Virus record (IMG/VR): IMGVR_UViG_3300005613_000005
Coordinates: 112,244 to 176,243 of that record
Strand: one strand, 5' to 3'
From: a virus
Length of the DNA stretch: 64,000 nucleotides
Within the stretch, counting starts at the first letter, position 1. Every line of letters begins with the position of its first letter. This document shows positions 23,374 through 54,538 of this stretch, one piece after another. The notes under the pieces were generated by a model. The model saw only the letters and a program-made list of their open reading frames with translations, searched no databases and was not told the origin of the DNA. Position numbers and translations under genes: made by a program.

Positions 23374-26300
23374 TCAAACAGACCAGAGAAATCCCCCATC
23401 ACCACCTATCTCATCCTCTTCATCTTCTTCACTGTCTAATTCATTTGCAGTACCAATTTTGCCGACTTTGGACGTATCAACTTCTTCACTGAACGGTATA
23501 CCCATACTTTCTGCAAATTCACCGGCCGACGGTGTACGATAAAACTGATTGTTAGCATACACACCAACACGATGATCAGATTCTGCTGCTAGCGCTGTAA
23601 GCATAGTTGAGTGCCCTAAAAGCATGTTAAGCGGATATCGTATAGCATCAAGCCAATGATTAAAAGCATCTTCAGGTTGATCGGTAACTTCACCAGCCGT
23701 ATTTAATTTAAAGTGATACAAGCTAAACTCTTCTATCAACGACTGACATGTCTCTTTAGCCACGTGAAATTTAGTATCTTCAGTACCAGGAACTCGTAAT
23801 AACCGTTTTATTATCTGCACGCCTGTCATAATCTCAGGCTTAACGTAGTTCGCCACCGGTAATCCTATCTTCTTCATCTCTTCCATAGAACCAGGAACAG
23901 CGGCGTCTGGAAAGTATAGTTGACATTTGTAAGCGTGATGATACTTAGTTTTAACATAATTTGCCCAAGTAGGATCACTTACATAACACATACCATCTGC
24001 GCGAACAGCGTATACGTTCTCTCTCTTGTCCAAGAAAAAGTACACCACCGTACTCGGTGCTGACCATCCCCAGTCGATCCCCGCGTAGCACGGCAACTTC
24101 AACTGGTGGCATTTCTTAACGAATATATCGTGAGTACATTCACCGGGATATTCTACACCAGTCAACTTCTTCCACATCTCGTTCCACGTGTTAACGTGTA
24201 CTCTCTCATCAAATTCCCTGTATATGATACCTTCTACTGAGGGTTTAAGATTCATGAGCTGAGCCAATGCCCAATCTGGACCTTTTCTAACCTTATTCAT
24301 TATGTCTTGTATCGGCTTCAACATCGGTGATTTTGAAGTTTGTTTTTTAGCGTCTCCCAAGCATATAGCAGCTGCTGGACATTTCCTACACTTAGATCCC
24401 GGAAACGTATATCGCATGAACTCTTTCTGTTTTTGCTTACTTTTTAACTTGTATTCTTCTTCTGTTAATACTATGAAATCTTCTTGAAGTACCCATAGAT
24501 CAGTCTCATCAGTACCTGATCTATCATCAGGACATCTTTCAGAAAACTCCCAGGCTGTCCATTTTCTTACCGTACGCCCTTCAGTATCAGCGTTTTCCAT
24601 CTGCTGATTCATCAGTCCATATCGTGACTTGCGCGTAGATATACCAACACGAAGCGCGTGTTTAGTTCCTTTTGAATCCAGCATACCAGAAATTTCACCA
24701 AAGGCCTTAACTCCTTCGCCTGATACTGTATCTATCTCGTCGACCACTACCATGGGAACGTGAGGACCATTACATTGTAAACTATTAATACCATTAACTA
24801 AAAACGAATGATCAGAGCGATTATTTCCTTCAACTTCAATGTCTATTAAGCGCTGTTTACCTAAAAATTCAATATTTACTACAGATAAACTATCTTTACT
24901 CCATTTTCTAAACCATTGTTTCCACTGTTTATTACTAAATTGTCCATCGGTCACTTCTTTCAATAAAACGCTACAACCCGTCTTACTAATATCAATTTCA
25001 TCTCCCATATCAAATGAATATAATTTCTCAGGAACAATATCTGTTGATATTTTATAGTACATGGTTGGATGAACGTAACGCTGTACAATGTCACGCATAG
25101 TTCGTGTATCACTGCTGTTAAAACGAATTACGTTATATTTATGCGAATTACGAACATGAGCTGATTTTAAATTAAATTTACTGTGAAACATATTCAACAG
25201 TTTATTACATTCTTTATCAGTTAAAGAACAAGTCGATAACTCTAATTGTTGACCAGCAATACCATCATCTTGAATCCAAAAAGCCAATGCAATCTCATCT
25301 ATGTAATCAACCAATTGATCAGTAATTATTTTTTTATTTATTCGTTGATCGGTAAAAAGTTCAACTAAAAATTGCAACTCTTCAGTTGATTCTGTAATTA
25401 ATTCTTTGATATTGCTTCCATAACCAGATTTTTTATCTCTAATTTGATTAACTTTAATATGTTGCTCAATAATTTCGCGGCAATAATTAAAGTACTCATG
25501 CTGCTTGATCGAATGTCCTTTATATAATCTGGCATTGCCAATTTGCTTACGATCTTTTATTTTAATACTTAAATGAGCATCTCCCAACATCATACCGATT
25601 AAAGCAGAACGCCACTGTTGCTGATTAAAATTAGGTTTATTCCAACGATATTTAGTTTTGCTACTATTCTTCTTAAACTGCGGAGCGCGTACAATTTTCG
25701 TATTGTAATTAATATCGCATAGTCGTTGCCAACCAAAACGCGTCAATATTTTATTGTCATAACCACCAGTACTTTCTAAACCATCTTCTAATGTAATCTT
25801 ATAAGTATCAGAATATTTAGTCCATTTGTCGATAACTTTTCGATATGTGCTTTGTGGAAATTCACCTCGCATATAATCCCAAGATGCTATATAATCGCCA
25901 ATTCTTACAGAATCAATGGAATGATATCCTCCACGTTTTGTTTTTACTATTGATTGTGGGTCAACACAAGCTTTCAGCGTACAAGGAAGTACCTCTAACG
26001 ATACAGTCTGACCATTAACATTAAACAACGACTTACTCATGTTAGCTTTATTTAATATTCGCTTGTCTTCTGCAAGGTTAGAAGGGGTAACAAGCGTTTT
26101 CAAACGCCGATTGTACAAGAAATTTTTAATATAATCATAACAGCGAGTTGCCTGCGCCATAACTGCGCCAACGTGAACAATATCCCGTTGATCATGCAAG
26201 ACGATCATCATCTCAACTATGGCCATCCCTAAAGTTTTTCCCGAACCTCTTCCAGCAACCAATAACAACTCGTTGATCATCTCCGGATTCTTGTTTAAAA

Positions 26301-26493
26301 CCGCAATCTGATATATCTCCCATATAGCATTGAAAGGGTTAGTATCTGCATACCTAGAAACCGTACAGTCAGGAAGATGAATGTCTAGATGAAACTTGAT
26401 CCATTTCTTGAATTCTGCTTTAGTTTTGCAGGGTTTTAATAATAATTTCTTACGTTGTTCGTAAGTTAAGTTCTGAACTTTCTTCTTTGCCAT
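23374..26493 (-). CDS. terL: Terminase large subunit interrupted by an intein
   Basis: A 1039-residue precursor. Residues 1-175 and 574-1039 are the terminase: Walker A is VAGRGSGKT near 79-87, Walker B/catalytic is VPMVVVDEID at 579-588, and the nuclease half includes YAGIDWGWSAPSTVVYF and the late acidic motif FNHWLDAIRYPL. Residues 176-573 are a LAGLIDADG intein inserted between Walker A and Walker B, so splicing is needed for function. The mature protein would be 641 residues. The ATG overlaps the stop of the probable small terminase gene. Confidence 0.93.
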   Translation of the reverse strand: MAKKKVQNLTYEQRKKLLLKPCKTKAEFKKWIKFHLDIHLPDCTVSRYADTNPFNAIWEIYQIAVLNKNPEMINELLLVAGRGSGKTLGMAIVEMMIVLHDQRDIVHVGAVMAQATRCYDYIKNFLYNRRLKTLVTPSNLAEDKRILNKANMSKSLFNVNGQTVSLEVLPCTLKACVDPQSIVKTKRGGYHSIDSVRIGDYIASWDYMRGEFPQSTYRKVIDKWTKYSDTYKITLEDGLESTGGYDNKILTRFGWQRLCDINYNTKIVRAPQFKKNSSKTKYRWNKPNFNQQQWRSALIGMMLGDAHLSIKIKDRKQIGNARLYKGHSIKQHEYFNYCREIIEQHIKVNQIRDKKSGYGSNIKELITESTEELQFLVELFTDQRINKKIITDQLVDYIDEIALAFWIQDDGIAGQQLELSTCSLTDKECNKLLNMFHSKFNLKSAHVRNSHKYNVIRFNSSDTRTMRDIVQRYVHPTMYYKISTDIVPEKLYSFDMGDEIDISKTGCSVLLKEVTDGQFSNKQWKQWFRKWSKDSLSVVNIEFLGKQRLIDIEVEGNNRSDHSFLVNGINSLQCNGPHVPMVVVDEIDTVSGEGVKAFGEISGMLDSKGTKHALRVGISTRKSRYGLMNQQMENADTEGRTVRKWTAWEFSERCPDDRSGTDETDLWVLQEDFIVLTEEEYKLKSKQKQKEFMRYTFPGSKCRKCPAAAICLGDAKKQTSKSPMLKPIQDIMNKVRKGPDWALAQLMNLKPSVEGIIYREFDERVHVNTWNEMWKKLTGVEYPGECTHDIFVKKCHQLKLPCYAGIDWGWSAPSTVVYFFLDKRENVYAVRADGMCYVSDPTWANYVKTKYHHAYKCQLYFPDAAVPGSMEEMKKIGLPVANYVKPEIMTGVQIIKRLLRVPGTEDTKFHVAKETCQSLIEEFSLYHFKLNTAGEVTDQPEDAFNHWLDAIRYPLNMLLGHSTMLTALAAESDHRVGVYANNQFYRTPSAGEFAESMGIPFSEEVDTSKVGKIGTANELDSEEDEEDEIGGDGGFLWSV
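24775..25968 (-). mobile_element. Intein with LAGLIDADG homing endonuclease in terL
   Basis: 398 residues starting at Cys176 (CVDPQSIVKTKRGG, splicing block A) and ending FLVNGINSLQ before Cys574. The endonuclease motifs are LIGMMLGDAHL near 298 and IALAFWIQDDGI near 401. The last intein residue is Gln where Asn is usual, and the one before is not His. Both are known but rarer variants. The segment is visibly more AT-rich than the flanking terminase coding sequence. Confidence 0.9.
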
Positions 26494-38478: not shown

Positions 38479-39111
38479 CTATTCGTAAACATACATCGTT
38501 TTAGTAACTTTATTGAATTTTACATCTTCAGGAATCGGTTTGGTGACCGTAAAGTTGTGTATGTTCTTATAGATAGCGAGATAAAAGATACCCATAGCTA
38601 CCGCGTCCACGATGTCGTTCTTGAACTTTACGGGCTTGTTGGTCTTCAACGACGTGGAATGGTTCGGAAACCTTATTTTCCATCTTTTCCAAAGCGCATC
38701 CTGAGTCATCAGTTTTTTAGCAGGTTCTTTACCCCATTGTTTAATTTGTACTTTAGTGGGACGAGATTTACCAAAGTTGATGAATTTCTTCCACAAAGTA
38801 ATGTTCAAGACAGTATATGGTATGTTGTTGCGAGCGCACAAGAGTTGTATCATGGCTCTATAAGCACAATTTAAGTTAGCACCTTGAGATGCAAACTTAC
38901 TGAAAAAATAATCCTCGTGTGCTACTTCTTCTATATCATGGAAGTCAATCAAGGCCTGTATCTTATTGATAAAATCTTGATATTGCTTACCCATATGTTC
39001 ATCATCATCAACATCAATAAAACCGTAGTCGTATATATCTGCGAAACCATCTTCGACATGGATAATACAATAGCCGCTAATGCATCCTGGATCAATTATA
39101 AGTATCTTCAT
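38479..39111 (-). CDS. RuvC-like Holliday-junction resolvase, TAG stop
   Basis: A 210-residue RNase-H-fold nuclease. The acidic residues lie in LIIDPGCISGYC (Asp7), AHEDYFFSK (Glu near 66) and KNDIVDAVAMG (two Asp near 166-169), the RuvC order. It probably resolves branched DNA before packaging. AAGGAG precedes the ATG. The stop is TAG and read-through would enter the next gene in frame. Confidence 0.7.
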   Translation of the reverse strand: MKILIIDPGCISGYCIIHVEDGFADIYDYGFIDVDDDEHMGKQYQDFINKIQALIDFHDIEEVAHEDYFFSKFASQGANLNCAYRAMIQLLCARNNIPYTVLNITLWKKFINFGKSRPTKVQIKQWGKEPAKKLMTQDALWKRWKIRFPNHSTSLKTNKPVKFKNDIVDAVAMGIFYLAIYKNIHNFTVTKPIPEDVKFNKVTKTMYVYE

Positions 39112-48137: not shown

Positions 48138-48523
48138 TCTTCGTCCTTGGTCAATAACTTATCCATAAACTGATCGAAAAGGTGAGAGTACATCTCATGT
48201 AATTCTTTTTTAACATCGTCAACAAACTTCTTTAAATTATACGTCACCATCTTACATTCGATAACATCACCGACAGTTGATCCCATTTTAATGGTAGCAT
48301 CCTGCATAACCTGCGGCAAGATCTGTGGTGAATGAAGCATCATGGTTATCTCAATCGAAGTATACGTAGTGGAAGTTACAGTACAAACAGCATTAGTGCC
48401 GGTATGATACGTCATATATGGTGAGTTATTTTTTCCTAAACTAACAGTTACCAAAGATATCTCATCACCGTAACAACCTTTGAGTAACATTATTAAATCT
48501 TGAATAGCATCAGTGTCCATCAT
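48134..48523 (-). CDS. Hypothetical small protein
   Basis: A 129-residue protein (CYGDEISLVTVSLGKNNSPY; LKKFVDDVKKELHEMYSHLF), first of the three small overlapping genes after dUTPase. No family is recognised. Confidence 0.45.
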   Translation of the reverse strand: MMDTDAIQDLIMLLKGCYGDEISLVTVSLGKNNSPYMTYHTGTNAVCTVTSTTYTSIEITMMLHSPQILPQVMQDATIKMGSTVGDVIECKMVTYNLKKFVDDVKKELHEMYSHLFDQFMDKLLTKDEE

Positions 48524-49056
48524 TTACCGCTCGATCCAAAACCACCGTCGCCGCGATCCGTATCTGTATCAACACTTTCGACTTGTTCAACGAAAAACTC
48601 ACTGTTGTGAGGATTAATGGTCATCTGCGCGATCTTCTCGCCTTTCTTAACGGCGATGTTCTTCTGCCTGTACTGCATGGACGAAGATACTCCTTGATAG
48701 TATTCTTTATCATAGTAGTTGAGGTTAGTACATATGACATGCGGGACACCACGGTATCCTTCATCTATCACGCCGGCCCATACTAACATACCTTTTGAGC
48801 CAAGCCCTGATTTTGTCTCTATCCTTCCCCAAACTCCTCGAGGAAACTTGACCCTGATGTTCAACGGGTGTTTTATGACTTGACCGGGTGCTATAGAGAT
48901 ATCTTCCGTAGCGTACAGGTCGAAACCCGCGTCTGTGGGATGAGCTTTAGTCGGCAGGGTGCCATTCTCGAGTACTTCTACCTCAATCTTGAAAGCATCG
49001 TCATGGATTTTCTTCATCCACCGCTGTTTTTTAGCAATATCGTCTGAATTGTGCAT
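48520..49056 (-). CDS. dut: dUTPase
   Basis: A 178-residue trimeric-type dUTPase. The motifs are DAGFDLYA at 42-49, SGLGSKG at 83-89, GVIDEGYRG at 95-103, GEKIAQM and the C-terminal RGDGGFGSSG at 168-177. It hydrolyses dUTP to dUMP and so keeps uracil out of phage DNA and supplies dTMP synthesis. GGAGTATAGT precedes the ATG, which overlaps the YqeY-like gene stop region. Confidence 0.95.
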   Translation of the reverse strand: MHNSDDIAKKQRWMKKIHDDAFKIEVEVLENGTLPTKAHPTDAGFDLYATEDISIAPGQVIKHPLNIRVKFPRGVWGRIETKSGLGSKGMLVWAGVIDEGYRGVPHVICTNLNYYDKEYYQGVSSSMQYRQKNIAVKKGEKIAQMTINPHNSEFFVEQVESVDTDTDRGDGGFGSSGK

Positions 49057-49057
49057 A

Positions 49058-49498
49058 CTATACTCCGTTCTTTTTCATGTAACTGTCAACGGCCATGAAC
49101 GCTACGCGACCGGAAACTATCTTACCTATTTTTTTACCCTCTGATTTAACGTATGCTATCAGTATCCCTTTATTAATTTCTGCCGGTTTAACCGTTGAAA
49201 GATAGTCGTCTAAGATTTTATAAGCTTCATCTACGCTGATCTCTTGCGGCATGAACTCTTTAACTATCGCCATCTCTCTTTTAGTTTTATCTATGAAATC
49301 CTGCGCGATGTTTTTTATGAAAGTAGCTTTCTCAAGTTTCGTATAATAAGCACAGATAACTTCTATCTCAGTTCGTTTATCTTTTGCTTTCTTACTTTCT
49401 TCTTCAATACATGACTTTATCATGCGCAACACATCGCGCCTAAAAAAATCTTTGCTCTTCATCGCCGCCACGATCTCTTCGTTTATTTTTTTCAGCAT
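49058..49498 (-). CDS. YqeY/GatB-tail-like protein, TAG stop
   Basis: A 146-residue protein from MLKKINEEIVAAMK; I chose ATG 49498 because GTGGAG lies seven bases upstream. The pattern AMKSKDFFRRDVLRMIKSCI, then KEFMPQEISVDEAYKILDDY and VSGRVAFMAVDSYMK is that of YqeY, related to the tRNA-binding tail of the GatB amidotransferase. Its cellular role is poorly known. It lies about 600 bases from the suppressor tRNA, a possible functional link. Stop TAG. Confidence 0.75.
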   Translation of the reverse strand: MLKKINEEIVAAMKSKDFFRRDVLRMIKSCIEEESKKAKDKRTEIEVICAYYTKLEKATFIKNIAQDFIDKTKREMAIVKEFMPQEISVDEAYKILDDYLSTVKPAEINKGILIAYVKSEGKKIGKIVSGRVAFMAVDSYMKKNGV

Positions 49499-49715
49499 AT
49501 CATTTCTCCACAATATAAAACAATTCTACTACACCACAATATCTTTATGTTTTTAAAAAAAATATTGCGAGTCACACGATCTTGCGGGTAAAATAAAATC
49601 CTGGTCAACACCACCTCACCTTACTTAACTATACCTTACAAACTATAGTCTACAGATTTTGCGTTCCGCAAAACTGATATTCGCGCGTTTCGCGCGAAGT
49701 GAAGTGATGTAAGGT
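49499..49715 (-). other. Intergenic region with two tight hairpins
   Basis: No convincing gene. Just after the DenV-like stop the minus strand carries two perfect hairpins with three-base loops: TTCGCGCG/CGCGCGAA (49680-49698) and TTTTGCG/CGCAAAA (49657-49673). A GTG-started frame of about 40 codons (VLTRILFYPQDRVTRNIFF) runs into the YqeY start after an AAGGTGAGG, but its composition is not persuasive. It could be a 3' RNA structure or processing signal. Confidence 0.45.
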
Positions 49716-50075
49716 TTAGTCAGGATAGATGTTGTTCATAAAATAATTATATTTTTTACGACAATGCTCACATCGGTCTAACAGATCTTTAAGAGCGTTT
49801 GGTACGTTGACGCGGTAGTACTGTTGATGGTCAGGTAGATAAGATATATCTGGTTGTTCATAGTTACTTTTATGGTTGTATCCACGCCATTCCATCTCGT
49901 GCGCTAGTTGATCGTGGCGTCGCTTCATGTGCATTGGCTCTATGCAGTTGTTTTTTATATAGCCGTCTATCTTATGCTGTTTCACGAATACGTGACGATG
50001 TTTGTGAAGCTCATTGTATTCACCGAGCAGGTGTTTCCTGCACAAGATTCTCGGATCGACCATCCACATTCTCAT
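49716..50075 (-). CDS. Pyrimidine-dimer DNA glycosylase (DenV-like)
   Basis: A 119-residue protein. MRMWMVDPRILCRKHLLGEY, NELHKHRHVFVKQHKI and RRHDQLAHEMEWRGYNHKS follow the pattern of the pyrimidine-dimer glycosylase/T4 endonuclease V family (HLxxEYxEL, RHDxLxxEMxxRG). T4 DenV uses an N-terminal Thr as nucleophile; here the protein begins Met-Arg, so chemistry may differ. It would remove UV dimers. CGGAGTTTAC precedes the ATG, directly downstream of the tRNA. Confidence 0.7.
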   Translation of the reverse strand: MRMWMVDPRILCRKHLLGEYNELHKHRHVFVKQHKIDGYIKNNCIEPMHMKRRHDQLAHEMEWRGYNHKSNYEQPDISYLPDHQQYYRVNVPNALKDLLDRCEHCRKKYNYFMNNIYPD

Positions 50076-50095: not shown

Positions 50096-50173
50096 TGGTG
50101 CCCCGGGAGGGATTTGAACCCTCAACAACGCTGTTTTAGAGACAGCTGCTCTGGCCAATTGAGCTACCGGGAC
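50096..50173 (-). tRNA. Suppressor tRNA, anticodon CUA (reads UAG)
   Basis: The minus strand folds into a full cloverleaf: acceptor GTCCCGG/CCGGGGC (7 pairs, one G-T), D stem GCTC/GAGC, anticodon stem GCTGT/ACAGC with loop CTCTAAA (positions 32-38, so 34-36 = CTA), T stem GAGGG/CCCTC with loop TTCAAAT, discriminator A and an encoded CCA. CUA pairs with UAG. The anticodon arm resembles tRNA-Trp changed by one base, but the amino acid cannot be read from the sequence. Variable loop is 6 nt. Confidence 0.93.
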
Positions 50174-50191
50174 ATACCTATATTTTACCGA

Positions 50192-50620
50192 TCAGATCTC
50201 GTCTAGCTCATTCTCGTAGCGTTCGTACGCCGCCAGACATTTCATGTCATCGTCGGCCTCTTTCTTTATCTCAGCGATCAAAGATTCAGGAATTTCGTGT
50301 TTACTGAGCCTGTCTTTCCAATCACTGTACCACCGTTGACCGTAAATGTACTCACACCGTTCACCAACGCAGATCTGAAACGGGTCACTGTATATCCTCT
50401 CGCCCTCGAACTCCAGGTAAGGCATAATGTAGTATGGTGAATCGCTACAGCAACCACAGCTGTGCGTTGCCGTATATTTGTTGACTCTAACGTTAACTGA
50501 CTTAGCACACAAAAATTTTTTATTCCAACGATCCCTGCCTTCTCTCAGATCCGGAAACTCTTTCCTGATTTTTTCTAATTTATTCGCTTCTTCTCTGAGT
50601 TCTTTTATCTTATCTTTCAT
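50192..50620 (-). CDS. Hypothetical protein with CGCC motif
   Basis: A 142-residue protein: a helical N-terminus (KIKELREEANKLEKIRKEFP), a middle with HSCGCCSDSPYYIMPYLEFE and a Cys-containing FQICVGERCEYI, then a helical end. The Cys residues suggest a metal or redox site. AAGGAGTTAACT precedes the ATG. No family is recognised. Confidence 0.5.
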   Translation of the reverse strand: MKDKIKELREEANKLEKIRKEFPDLREGRDRWNKKFLCAKSVNVRVNKYTATHSCGCCSDSPYYIMPYLEFEGERIYSDPFQICVGERCEYIYGQRWYSDWKDRLSKHEIPESLIAEIKKEADDDMKCLAAYERYENELDEI

Positions 50621-50631
50621 AGTTAACTCCT

Positions 50632-50937
50632 TTATAGTAATGGTATGTTTTCTAATATCTTCTCTACCTGTTCAGTCGCGTGTGTTGCAAAAGCGGTCAT
50701 GCTATCGTTAAGATCTGGTTCATGAAAAGGATATGCGATACCATCAGATTCATTAACTTGATCAAGTAGTTTGTCTAACTCTTGCTCGTTTTGAACCTTT
50801 AAATATACTAGAGTACATCCTTCATATTCTTGTTTAGCTAGACCACCCCACACGACAATTTCCATCGCCGCGTGTCCTGCTTGTATTGCCTGCTGCGATC
50901 TCGACAGATCGTTACGCACTACGACGAAGACCTTCAT
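50632..50937 (-). CDS. Peptidyl-tRNA hydrolase 2 (Pth2)-like protein
   Basis: A 101-residue protein. VVVRNDLSRSQQAIQAGHAA is the Pth2 start and PFHEPDLNDSMTAFATH matches the family's EPDL...TA motif. Pth2 frees tRNA from stalled peptidyl-tRNA. It is a short but complete domain. It lies in the same operon as the suppressor tRNA. GAGGATG overlaps the upstream gene. Confidence 0.65.
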   Translation of the reverse strand: MKVFVVVRNDLSRSQQAIQAGHAAMEIVVWGGLAKQEYEGCTLVYLKVQNEQELDKLLDQVNESDGIAYPFHEPDLNDSMTAFATHATEQVEKILENIPLL

Positions 50938-51211
50938 CCTCGACCTCCTTCGCCTGTGCTTTTGCTCTGTCGATGATCCTGTCTACCTCAGCCCACACCG
51001 GTTTGTTGTCAGGATGCGGTTGTTCTATTTTTTCGTACGGCACACCGCGCAATAGACAGTATGCTATATGCTTGTGTCTGGCATAGTAGCGTTTGTAGTA
51101 CAGCCCGTCTACGAAACCGTACTTGCTGGATTTTCTTTGACTTTTAAGCTCGCGTATCTCAACGGCGAGCTGTTTAAGTTCTTGTTTTAATTTTTTGATT
51201 TGTTCTTTCAT
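50912..51211 (-). CDS. Hypothetical coiled-coil protein under hairpin control
   Basis: A 99-residue protein from MKEQIKKLKQELKQLAVEIR; ATG 51211 has GGAG seven bases upstream, whereas an ATG four codons earlier would hide that site. It is a coiled coil followed by a basic Tyr-rich region (YYKRYYARHKHIAY). Its ribosome site is the 3' arm of a 10-bp hairpin (51216-51262), so translation may be regulated. No family is recognised. Confidence 0.55.
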   Translation of the reverse strand: MKEQIKKLKQELKQLAVEIRELKSQRKSSKYGFVDGLYYKRYYARHKHIAYCLLRGVPYEKIEQPHPDNKPVWAEVDRIIDRAKAQAKEVEDEGLRRSA

Positions 51212-51215
51212 TGGT

Positions 51216-51262
51216 ATCTCCATAGTTAAAGTTGTTGAAACACTTTCGAATTCTATGGAGAT
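51216..51262 (-). promoter_or_regulatory. Hairpin sequestering the ribosome site
   Basis: ATCTCCATAG (51262-51253) is the exact reverse complement of CTATGGAGAT (51225-51216), which contains the GGAG of the gene starting at 51211. An inner AAAGT/ACTTT helix can extend it. The structure would hide the ribosome site, as in an RNA thermometer or a ligand- or protein-controlled switch. Confidence 0.65.
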
Positions 51263-53039: not shown

Positions 53040-54425
53040 CTATATCTCCTTTATCTTATCAGTGATCTCTCTATAATATCTCAACCTTTGGTCAGCATGT
53101 CTCGACAGCATGTCAGATCCCGTAGGACGATAGTCCAGAATGATGCAGTGAGTTTTATCGCCTTCTTTTCTGAGTCCTCTGCCGATGCACTGTAAAACTG
53201 GCCCCTTACCTGCTACAAAATTAGCGAGTATCAATACTTCAACGGGTTTAGTATTTACGCCCTCACCTATCTTGCCATCAGTACCTACTAGACCCATGAT
53301 CTTCTTGGCGTTGAAATCGTCTACGTAGCCCTGAGACTTCTTATCTTTGCCCGTCGCAAAAGGAATGCCGAGGACGCGTGAAAGCTCACGACCGTGAGCA
53401 ACCTCGTCAACCAGGCACAGTACTCGTTTGCCGTTGGCCATAAATTTCTGCATATCGCTCTGTATCTGATTCTTCATGGCGTCGCAGTTTAGAACATGGG
53501 ACTTGTAGTTCTTGAGTTTATCATGCTTGTACTGCTTACAATGCCTAGTGTCTACATTTCTCATGAAAAACACAGGTTGAGCCAACCACCCGTTCTTTAC
53601 TCCCCAGATGACGTCCCTCTTAATCAGTATCTCACCGCAGCCCGCCGTCAACATGATATCTTTACCGTCTGACCTAAACGCGGTAGCCGTTAGACCGTAC
53701 ACCCTACCTACTTCTCCTAGCTGTTTCGCGATACTGTAAAAAGTATCGGCGCTTATGTGATGTCCTTCATCGAATATAACCAATCCCAAGCCCTGTTCCT
53801 TGAATTTGTCGGCATGATTGTTGACGGACTGGGCTATACCAACAGTTATGCTTCTTATTTTTTGCTTACCGTTACCGAAATAACCTATCTTGTTGCCGCC
53901 GAACGCCAAACACAGATCTTCGTAGAACTGATCCGCTATGTTCGTGCTGGGAACTACGATCAGCGTTTTCTTTCTAAACTCTCGTATAGCATGAACGGCC
54001 AGGAGAGTTTTTCCGAGAGCGGTGGCGAAATTGATTATGCCGCGGTGGTTCTCCTTCATTAATATAAGGGCTTCGTTTTGATAATCGCGAAGGTCAAATG
54101 GCTTGTTGATCCACGGTAGAGGTATGTCGTCTCCGGTGTCTGCTCGCCGATCTTCGATATCGACGTTCATGTTTTTTATCAAAGTCGCAAAGCCAGATGC
54201 TAGAGCCAGGTGTCCATCTTTGAGTTTGTACAGTAGTGATTTATGCAGTTCTTGCCTTAACTCTTGATACAGTACTGACCTTTTGAACCAAGATTTATCT
54301 TTGTTTTTTCTTAAGCGATATTCGATCGACTTATCTTTAAAGGTTAATAGTTTATTCAAGCGTTTTTCTACGTCGACCGTAGGATCTTTCAAGACTATTA
54401 CAGAATTTGTAATTATCGCTTTCAT
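53040..54425 (-). CDS. UvsW-like DEAD/DEAH helicase, TAG stop
   Basis: A 461-residue SF2 helicase from MKAIITNSVIVLKDP; I reject a start 17 codons upstream because it would cross the promoter. The motifs are NFATALGKTLLAVHAIREFR (Walker A), VIFDEGHHISADTFY (DEGH box), GLTATAFRSDGKD, and the C-terminal QCIGRGLRKEGDKTH. UvsW-type enzymes unwind branched intermediates and R-loops. The start lies six bases after TATAAT. Confidence 0.85.
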   Translation of the reverse strand: MKAIITNSVIVLKDPTVDVEKRLNKLLTFKDKSIEYRLRKNKDKSWFKRSVLYQELRQELHKSLLYKLKDGHLALASGFATLIKNMNVDIEDRRADTGDDIPLPWINKPFDLRDYQNEALILMKENHRGIINFATALGKTLLAVHAIREFRKKTLIVVPSTNIADQFYEDLCLAFGGNKIGYFGNGKQKIRSITVGIAQSVNNHADKFKEQGLGLVIFDEGHHISADTFYSIAKQLGEVGRVYGLTATAFRSDGKDIMLTAGCGEILIKRDVIWGVKNGWLAQPVFFMRNVDTRHCKQYKHDKLKNYKSHVLNCDAMKNQIQSDMQKFMANGKRVLCLVDEVAHGRELSRVLGIPFATGKDKKSQGYVDDFNAKKIMGLVGTDGKIGEGVNTKPVEVLILANFVAGKGPVLQCIGRGLRKEGDKTHCIILDYRPTGSDMLSRHADQRLRYYREITDKIKEI

Positions 54426-54431
54426 GTATGT

Positions 54432-54437
54432 ATTATA
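54432..54437 (-). promoter_or_regulatory. Leaderless-type promoter TATAAT-N6-ATG
   Basis: TATAAT, ACATAC, ATG at 54425. It lies in the 113-base divergent gap that separates the leftward and rightward gene sets. Confidence 0.65.
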
Positions 54438-54538
54438 CAGGTATAAAAATATTAAGGCACATGCCTGGCAGACCACACAAAAATTACGGTTGTAGAATAT
54501 TTTTGTAGATTTTTTAAAAACATTTTTTTGGAGGCTTC

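Follow-up and report, generated by a model that had tools for sequence, protein, structure and literature searches.

The gene for a tRNA with anticodon CUA described here is probably (we put it at about 0.7) the intact amber-reading member of a conserved pair formed by a PTH2-family gene and a stop-reading tRNA, a pair in which the tRNA would gate PTH2 in many phages and would have a read-through role in the phage studied here. We define this class by a PTH2 gene and a stop-reading tRNA lying close together on the same strand, an arrangement found in our window (the whole stretch of 64,000 nucleotides analysed, which is the final 64 kb of a 176,243-bp IMG/VR virus record) and kept in two of its relatives.

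ARAGORN detected only one tRNA in the whole window (GTCCCGGTAGCTCAATTGGCCAGAGCAGCTGTCTCTAAAACAGCGTTGTTGAGGGTTCAAATCCCTCCCGGGGCACCA), and the Rfam tRNA family RF00005 covers it across the full model (61.3 bits, E = 7.9e-11). Its four arms are all paired, the anticodon loop reads CTCTAAA, A73 serves as the discriminator and the CCA end is encoded, while the variable region counted by hand is 6 nt, one more than usual. Both programs confirmed the amber tRNA of the original prediction, with its four paired arms, loop sequence, CTA anticodon and encoded CCA. ARAGORN labels the gene 'tRNA-Pyl', which means merely that the anticodon is CUA; in shape it is a canonical elongator tRNA, as expected of an amber suppressor. 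TAG terminates 15 of the 88 window ORFs of at least 60 aa, close to the dozen or so genes first estimated. In the complete record, 46 of 285 ORFs of at least 50 aa end in TAG; UAG is therefore an ordinary stop in this phage, and its genome is not TAG-recoded as in code-15 phages, a view already taken from the window alone. The CUA tRNA is solitary, 82 kb away from a cluster of 22 tRNAs in the same record.

The PTH2 gene lies one ORF upstream of the tRNA on the same strand, with a gap of 459 bp (see the table). A search of viral sequences found no relatives of the 142-aa ORF in between. Two related genomes, G010 and G014 (64% and 68% identity in DNA polymerase, respectively), each contain one CUA tRNA and share the order PTH2 - tRNA - dUTPase. 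Since both relatives carry the CUA tRNA at the equivalent syntenic position while the tRNA bodies have diverged (the three discriminators are A, T and G), its presence is more than chance. Neither PTH2 nor a CUA tRNA, by ARAGORN or by profile, was found in the more distant G007 and G009 (about 50% identity). In G014, the homologue of the 103-aa ORF is fused to the N-terminus of PTH2.

Coordinates of the features discussed (window positions unless a record or locus is given)
Feature	Position	Strand	Basis
Amber-reading tRNA, anticodon CUA, CCA encoded	50096..50173	-	ARAGORN; Rfam tRNA, 61.3 bits
101-aa protein of the PTH2 family, paired with the tRNA, no in-frame UAG	50632..50937	-	Pfam PF01981, E 7e-7; AlphaFold; Foldseek; ATG after AGGAGG
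142-aa ORF between PTH2 and tRNA	50192..50620	-	no Pfam or PHROG match
103-aa ORF upstream of PTH2	50912..51223	-	BLAST to G010 and G014
Pyrimidine dimer DNA glycosylase, downstream neighbour	49716..50075	-	Pfam PF03013
Non-coding stretch with two strong hairpins	49514..49715	-	folding
YqeY-like protein (GatB tail family)	49058..49513	-	Pfam PF09424, E 3e-13
dUTPase, downstream anchor of the kept order PTH2 - CUA tRNA - dUTPase	48520..49056	-	Pfam PF00692; synteny with G010, G014
22 tRNAs, all amino acids but lysine	record 76049-80232 (L005, L006); 76.0-80.2 kb
UUA-anticodon (ochre-reading) tRNAs near PTH2	L180:9299-9371; L183:6794-6869; L231:5402-5478; L331:4341-4413

Several other features of this neighbourhood deserve mention. 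The non-coding stretch downstream of the glycosylase gene and a stretch that follows the CUA tRNA of G010 (G010:35129-35379) contain similar hairpin pairs with GAAA-type and GGAAC loops, possibly a conserved RNA, although we regard it as a candidate element only and its tie to the PTH2-tRNA pair as putative. Between PTH2 and the CUA tRNA of G010 (G010:34935-35052) lies a CCA-ended tRNA-like fold of about -36 kcal/mol that ARAGORN does not call. YqeY-like or amidotransferase-like proteins, such as the one encoded in the window, GAP32_189 and XacN1 ORF360, occur in phages that also carry PTH2 and a CUA tRNA, and might belong with them as a third component. Elsewhere, the window codes for a terminase large subunit of 1039 aa (23374-26493) with an internal LAGLIDADG stretch, probably an intein, and for a phage GroEL (44097-45818; PHROG 5725, E = 7.5e-99). 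The tRNA cluster of the record includes a bacterial class A RNase P RNA (L005:16259-16558, record 76259-76558; Rfam, 179.6 bits); a full-text literature search turned up no evident earlier description of an RNase P RNA in a phage, and none scored above threshold in G010.

The window PTH2 scores above the curated cut-off of its Pfam family, its AlphaFold model has a pLDDT of 96, and the top Foldseek matches of this model are archaeal and human Pth2 (2ZV3, 1XTY and 1Q7S); the protein has both the fold and the family profile of Pth2. However, alignment with 2ZV3 places a Gln at the Lys of GKxxAQ, which we take to be an active-site motif residue of Pth2, while the following Gln and the His are kept. 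Its hydrolase activity is therefore not assured, and we refer to its catalysis as putative.

An alignment of three PTH2s served as the query against viral contigs. Among the matches listed, 45 of 78 PTH2 loci carry a CUA tRNA, a fraction that is not an estimate of prevalence as the searches were pattern-seeded. All 45 tRNAs are on the PTH2 strand, 44 are within 1.5 kb and many lie less than 100 bp downstream of PTH2. A pattern search with relaxed ARAGORN settings added one further CUA tRNA (L164). Where a PTH2 locus has any tRNA, the nearest one is CUA in 40 cases out of 55. No CUA tRNA was present in 46 control loci fetched with the neighbouring glycosylase gene (P = 8e-13), loci that are poor in tRNAs in general (any tRNA in 4/46). 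The reverse test pointed the same way, with PTH2 in 9 of 15 CUA-tRNA records (three of them weak matches) compared to 3 of 27 control records (P = 0.001). The PTH2 tree contains a clade of 22 rows with neither a nearby CUA tRNA nor a UAG, and a scan of bacterial genomes for PTH2 returned two contigs, neither with a CUA tRNA. The pair is present in cultured phages of M. smegmatis, Acinetobacter, Cronobacter, Serratia, Pectobacterium and Tenacibaculum. Bixzunavirus genomes, Cane17 likewise, have a 'peptidyl-tRNA hydrolase' and a 'tRNA-suppressor (cta)' annotated next to each other, and the PTH2 query matches 193 Mycobacterium records.

The discriminators of the CUA tRNAs vary (A in 23, G in 11, T in 10 and C in 1), suggesting that decoding UAG matters more than the amino acid inserted. 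A single amino-acid identity for these tRNAs was rejected on the same grounds and on comparison of the tRNA bodies. Avoidance of TAG as the mark of an adapted genome was also rejected, as PTH2 loci lacking a CUA tRNA avoid TAG at least equally.

In-frame stop codons in PTH2 itself were found at many of these loci. Nine loci have a PTH2 frame with a single internal stop, which is TAG in all nine; its position differs from locus to locus, homology resumes after it, and on the AlphaFold fold it falls mostly between predicted secondary-structure elements. Stops bridged by at least five homologues in the viral loci examined comprised ten TAG, all in PTH2, no TGA and one TAA. Among the data examined, the one non-TAG case with good support is a DNA polymerase frame (L059:9377-13462), whose in-frame TAA is bridged by homologues and occurs in two overlapping contigs. 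Upstream of the PTH2 domain, the nearest stop is TAG in 25 of 29 loci without an intervening ATG compared to 13 of 64 loci with one (P = 2e-9, a value that overstates independence, as do our other P values, since some loci such as GAP32, CBB, BF, Kaldavass and XbC2 are near copies). An ATG nearly always stands a few codons before these 25 TAGs. Start-proximal UAGs amount to about 26 loci in total, three of which (L158, L089 and pT24) were assigned by inspection, and they occur in the finished isolates GAP32, CBB, BF, Kaldavass, XbC2, SNUABM_19, ME3, Arash and Tenacibaculum pT24. Bixzunavirus PTH2 opens with ATG-TAG-GTG (L328:7971-7979 and L329:4971-4979), the GTG being the annotated start, which makes gating ambiguous; Alice and Cane17 were left out of the gated count because of the better Shine-Dalgarno spacing of the GTG that immediately follows the UAG. 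The window PTH2, which has no in-frame TAG, falls outside this in-frame-UAG subclass, to which about 34 other loci belong. Several loci (L172, L196 and L234) have a PTH2 with UAG and no CUA tRNA in the stretch examined, and these records may be fragments.

A 3′ purine favours amber suppression. A purine follows the PTH2 UAG in 27 of 29 collapsed cases compared to 35 of 65 terminator TAGs in the same loci. On the PTH2 tree, which has few columns and many weak forks, the internal UAG (8 rows) takes 8 changes and the start-proximal UAG 11. In GAP32, BF, CBB and Kaldavass (L222, L225, L226, L227:4309-4875), the gene after PTH2 has a TAG at codon 47; the ME3 homologue of this gene is contiguous. 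At one locus (L180), UAA is the sole stop separating the ATG from the PTH2 domain, and the tRNA encoded nearby has a UUA anticodon; UUA tRNAs near PTH2 are also found in L183, L231 and Lak-B4. This small sample points in the direction that a gating model would predict. Standard annotation misses or truncates UAG-bearing PTH2 genes: the starts annotated for GAP32_397 and for the pT24 gene fall within the domain, and BF has no called gene at the PTH2 site.

Given the linkage to PTH2 and the in-frame UAG in the PTH2 of many phages, PTH2 appears to be the best-supported target of the PTH2-linked CUA tRNA class. In the window phage, homologues in the data examined bridge none of the TAGs that lie in real coding frames of the record, and no convincing gene opening with ATG-x-UAG was found there. 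The original prediction correctly placed an amber-reading tRNA in a phage that uses UAG as an ordinary stop; its further proposal, that the tRNA controls C-terminal extensions or small split genes, did not hold up in this phage, as the long extensions examined turned out to be the next gene, often with an ATG right after the TAG. The helicase at 53040-54476 has an in-frame extension corresponding to an 88-aa lipoprotein-like ORF and the RuvC-like gene at 38479-39111 a conserved 99-aa stretch, and no family spans the TAG in either case. The tie of the window tRNA to PTH2 would hence be one of synteny and family membership.

We propose that in many phages the UAG interrupting the PTH2 frame, either a few codons into the gene or within a loop of the folded protein, would be a site of competition between RF1 and the phage tRNA, presumably charged, and that full-length PTH2 would be made only if the tRNA wins. 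Such control of PTH2 by the tRNA would make the pair a feed-forward or RF1-sensing switch of natural origin. The tRNA must do more than gate, since 28 of the 45 CUA-linked PTH2 genes are ungated and so is that of the window. Because many pairs lack a UAG in PTH2, the two products probably also cooperate, with PTH2 clearing the peptidyl-tRNA that would arise from suppression. In the window phage, the tRNA would most likely yield low-level read-through of UAG, with PTH2 taking care of the peptidyl-tRNA formed in the process. That the pair is a self-contained natural switch, in which a dedicated suppressor tRNA gates essentially one gene, PTH2, whose protein would handle peptidyl-tRNA, and through which termination capacity of RF1 is both sensed and managed during infection with the code unchanged, has in our judgement about even odds.

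Persistence of the pair with an ungated PTH2, as in the window phage, could also be accounted for by a tRNA directed mainly at the host, which would weaken termination at host UAGs while PTH2 keeps the peptidyl-tRNA so formed from harming the phage. That suppressor tRNAs weaken the host has been proposed (PMC12386605). We consider this reading rather unlikely, as it leaves both the UAG inside PTH2 and its purine 3′ context unexplained. Less probable still is an anti-defence function, in which PTH2 would clear aminoacyl- or peptidyl-tRNA that host toxins have blocked, and the role of the tRNA would be that of a by-stander or decoy. Pth of another system hydrolyses N-acetyl-aminoacyl-tRNA made by a GNAT toxin (PMC9241777), and ribosome rescue has been proposed for jumbo-phage PTH2 (PMC7824862); however, a by-stander tRNA is not expected to read UAG in nearly every pair, nor is a UAG expected inside PTH2.

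It is improbable that the UAGs themselves are accidental, with ATG-x-TAG being a leader mini-ORF, PTH2 starting downstream at a rare codon (AUU or GUG) and the internal UAGs reflecting pseudogenes or sequencing errors. The codon after the UAG is ATT or GTT/GTA in several start-proximal cases, and the GTG of Alice and Cane17 also fits a downstream start. In the GAP32 group, Arash and L159, however, the next codon is AAT or AAC, neither of which is a start. Moreover, the nine internal stops are all TAG in a frame that stays open and homologous beyond them, the same UAG recurs among independently sequenced isolates, and neither version predicts linkage to a CUA tRNA. Finally, it is very improbable that the window tRNA lacks a role, as a surplus or degenerating copy of a normal phage tRNA that a single anticodon change separates from Trp or Lys: its loop CUCUAAA differs by one base from that of tRNA-Trp, which we take to be CUCCAAA, many GenBank phage matches are annotated as tRNA-Trp and some as tRNA-Lys, and the 22-tRNA cluster lacks Lys, but the four arms and the CCA end remain intact, G010 and G014 share both the CUA anticodon and the gene order although the remainder of the tRNA has diverged, and pairing with PTH2 is general.

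A gated PTH2 remains the reading we prefer, and if it is true, UAG would be a switch for one gene while still a stop elsewhere. Why standard-code phages keep stop-reading tRNAs is a published puzzle (PMC5852040, PMC12386605), for which a candidate target and a partner gene can now be named, and the occurrence of the pair in cultured phages makes it directly testable. XacN1, a standard-code phage, carries an orphan CUA tRNA whose targets were sought and none found (PMC5852040), and the role of the CUA tRNA of the Zeta crAss-like phages, which also use the standard code, was left open (PMC12386605). Both resemble the window phage in having a CUA tRNA and keeping UAG as a stop; neither paper names a PTH2 partner or a UAG inside PTH2, two features that come from the present analysis. 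The PTH2 family has been reported across jumbo-phage groups, with ribosome rescue as the proposed function (PMC7824862), in a text that does not mention suppressor tRNAs. A full-text search of the open-licence literature found no paper on a link between PTH2 and a suppressor tRNA; this link and the in-frame UAG of PTH2 are new here.

Phage suppressor tRNAs also read UAG as sense in code-15 phages (crAss-like, Lak and others), where UAG occurs in many genes, whereas here it would be sense essentially only in PTH2 and, in four phages, in the next gene. An engineered feed-forward loop or leak-dampener circuit, in which expression of a nonsense-bearing gene depends on production of a suppressor tRNA (PMC7969014), is the synthetic counterpart of what would be a natural arrangement in phages. 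Pyrrolysine tRNA has the anticodon CUA in common with the window tRNA, which has a canonical shape instead and among whose neighbours no pyrrolysine genes were noticed. RF2 (prfB) is autoregulated through an early in-frame UGA and a frameshift that senses release-factor activity. The likeness to PTH2 is that an early in-frame stop would make the gene of a translation factor sense release-factor activity; the difference is that prfB frameshifts at its UGA, whereas the UAG of phage PTH2 would be read in frame by a dedicated tRNA.
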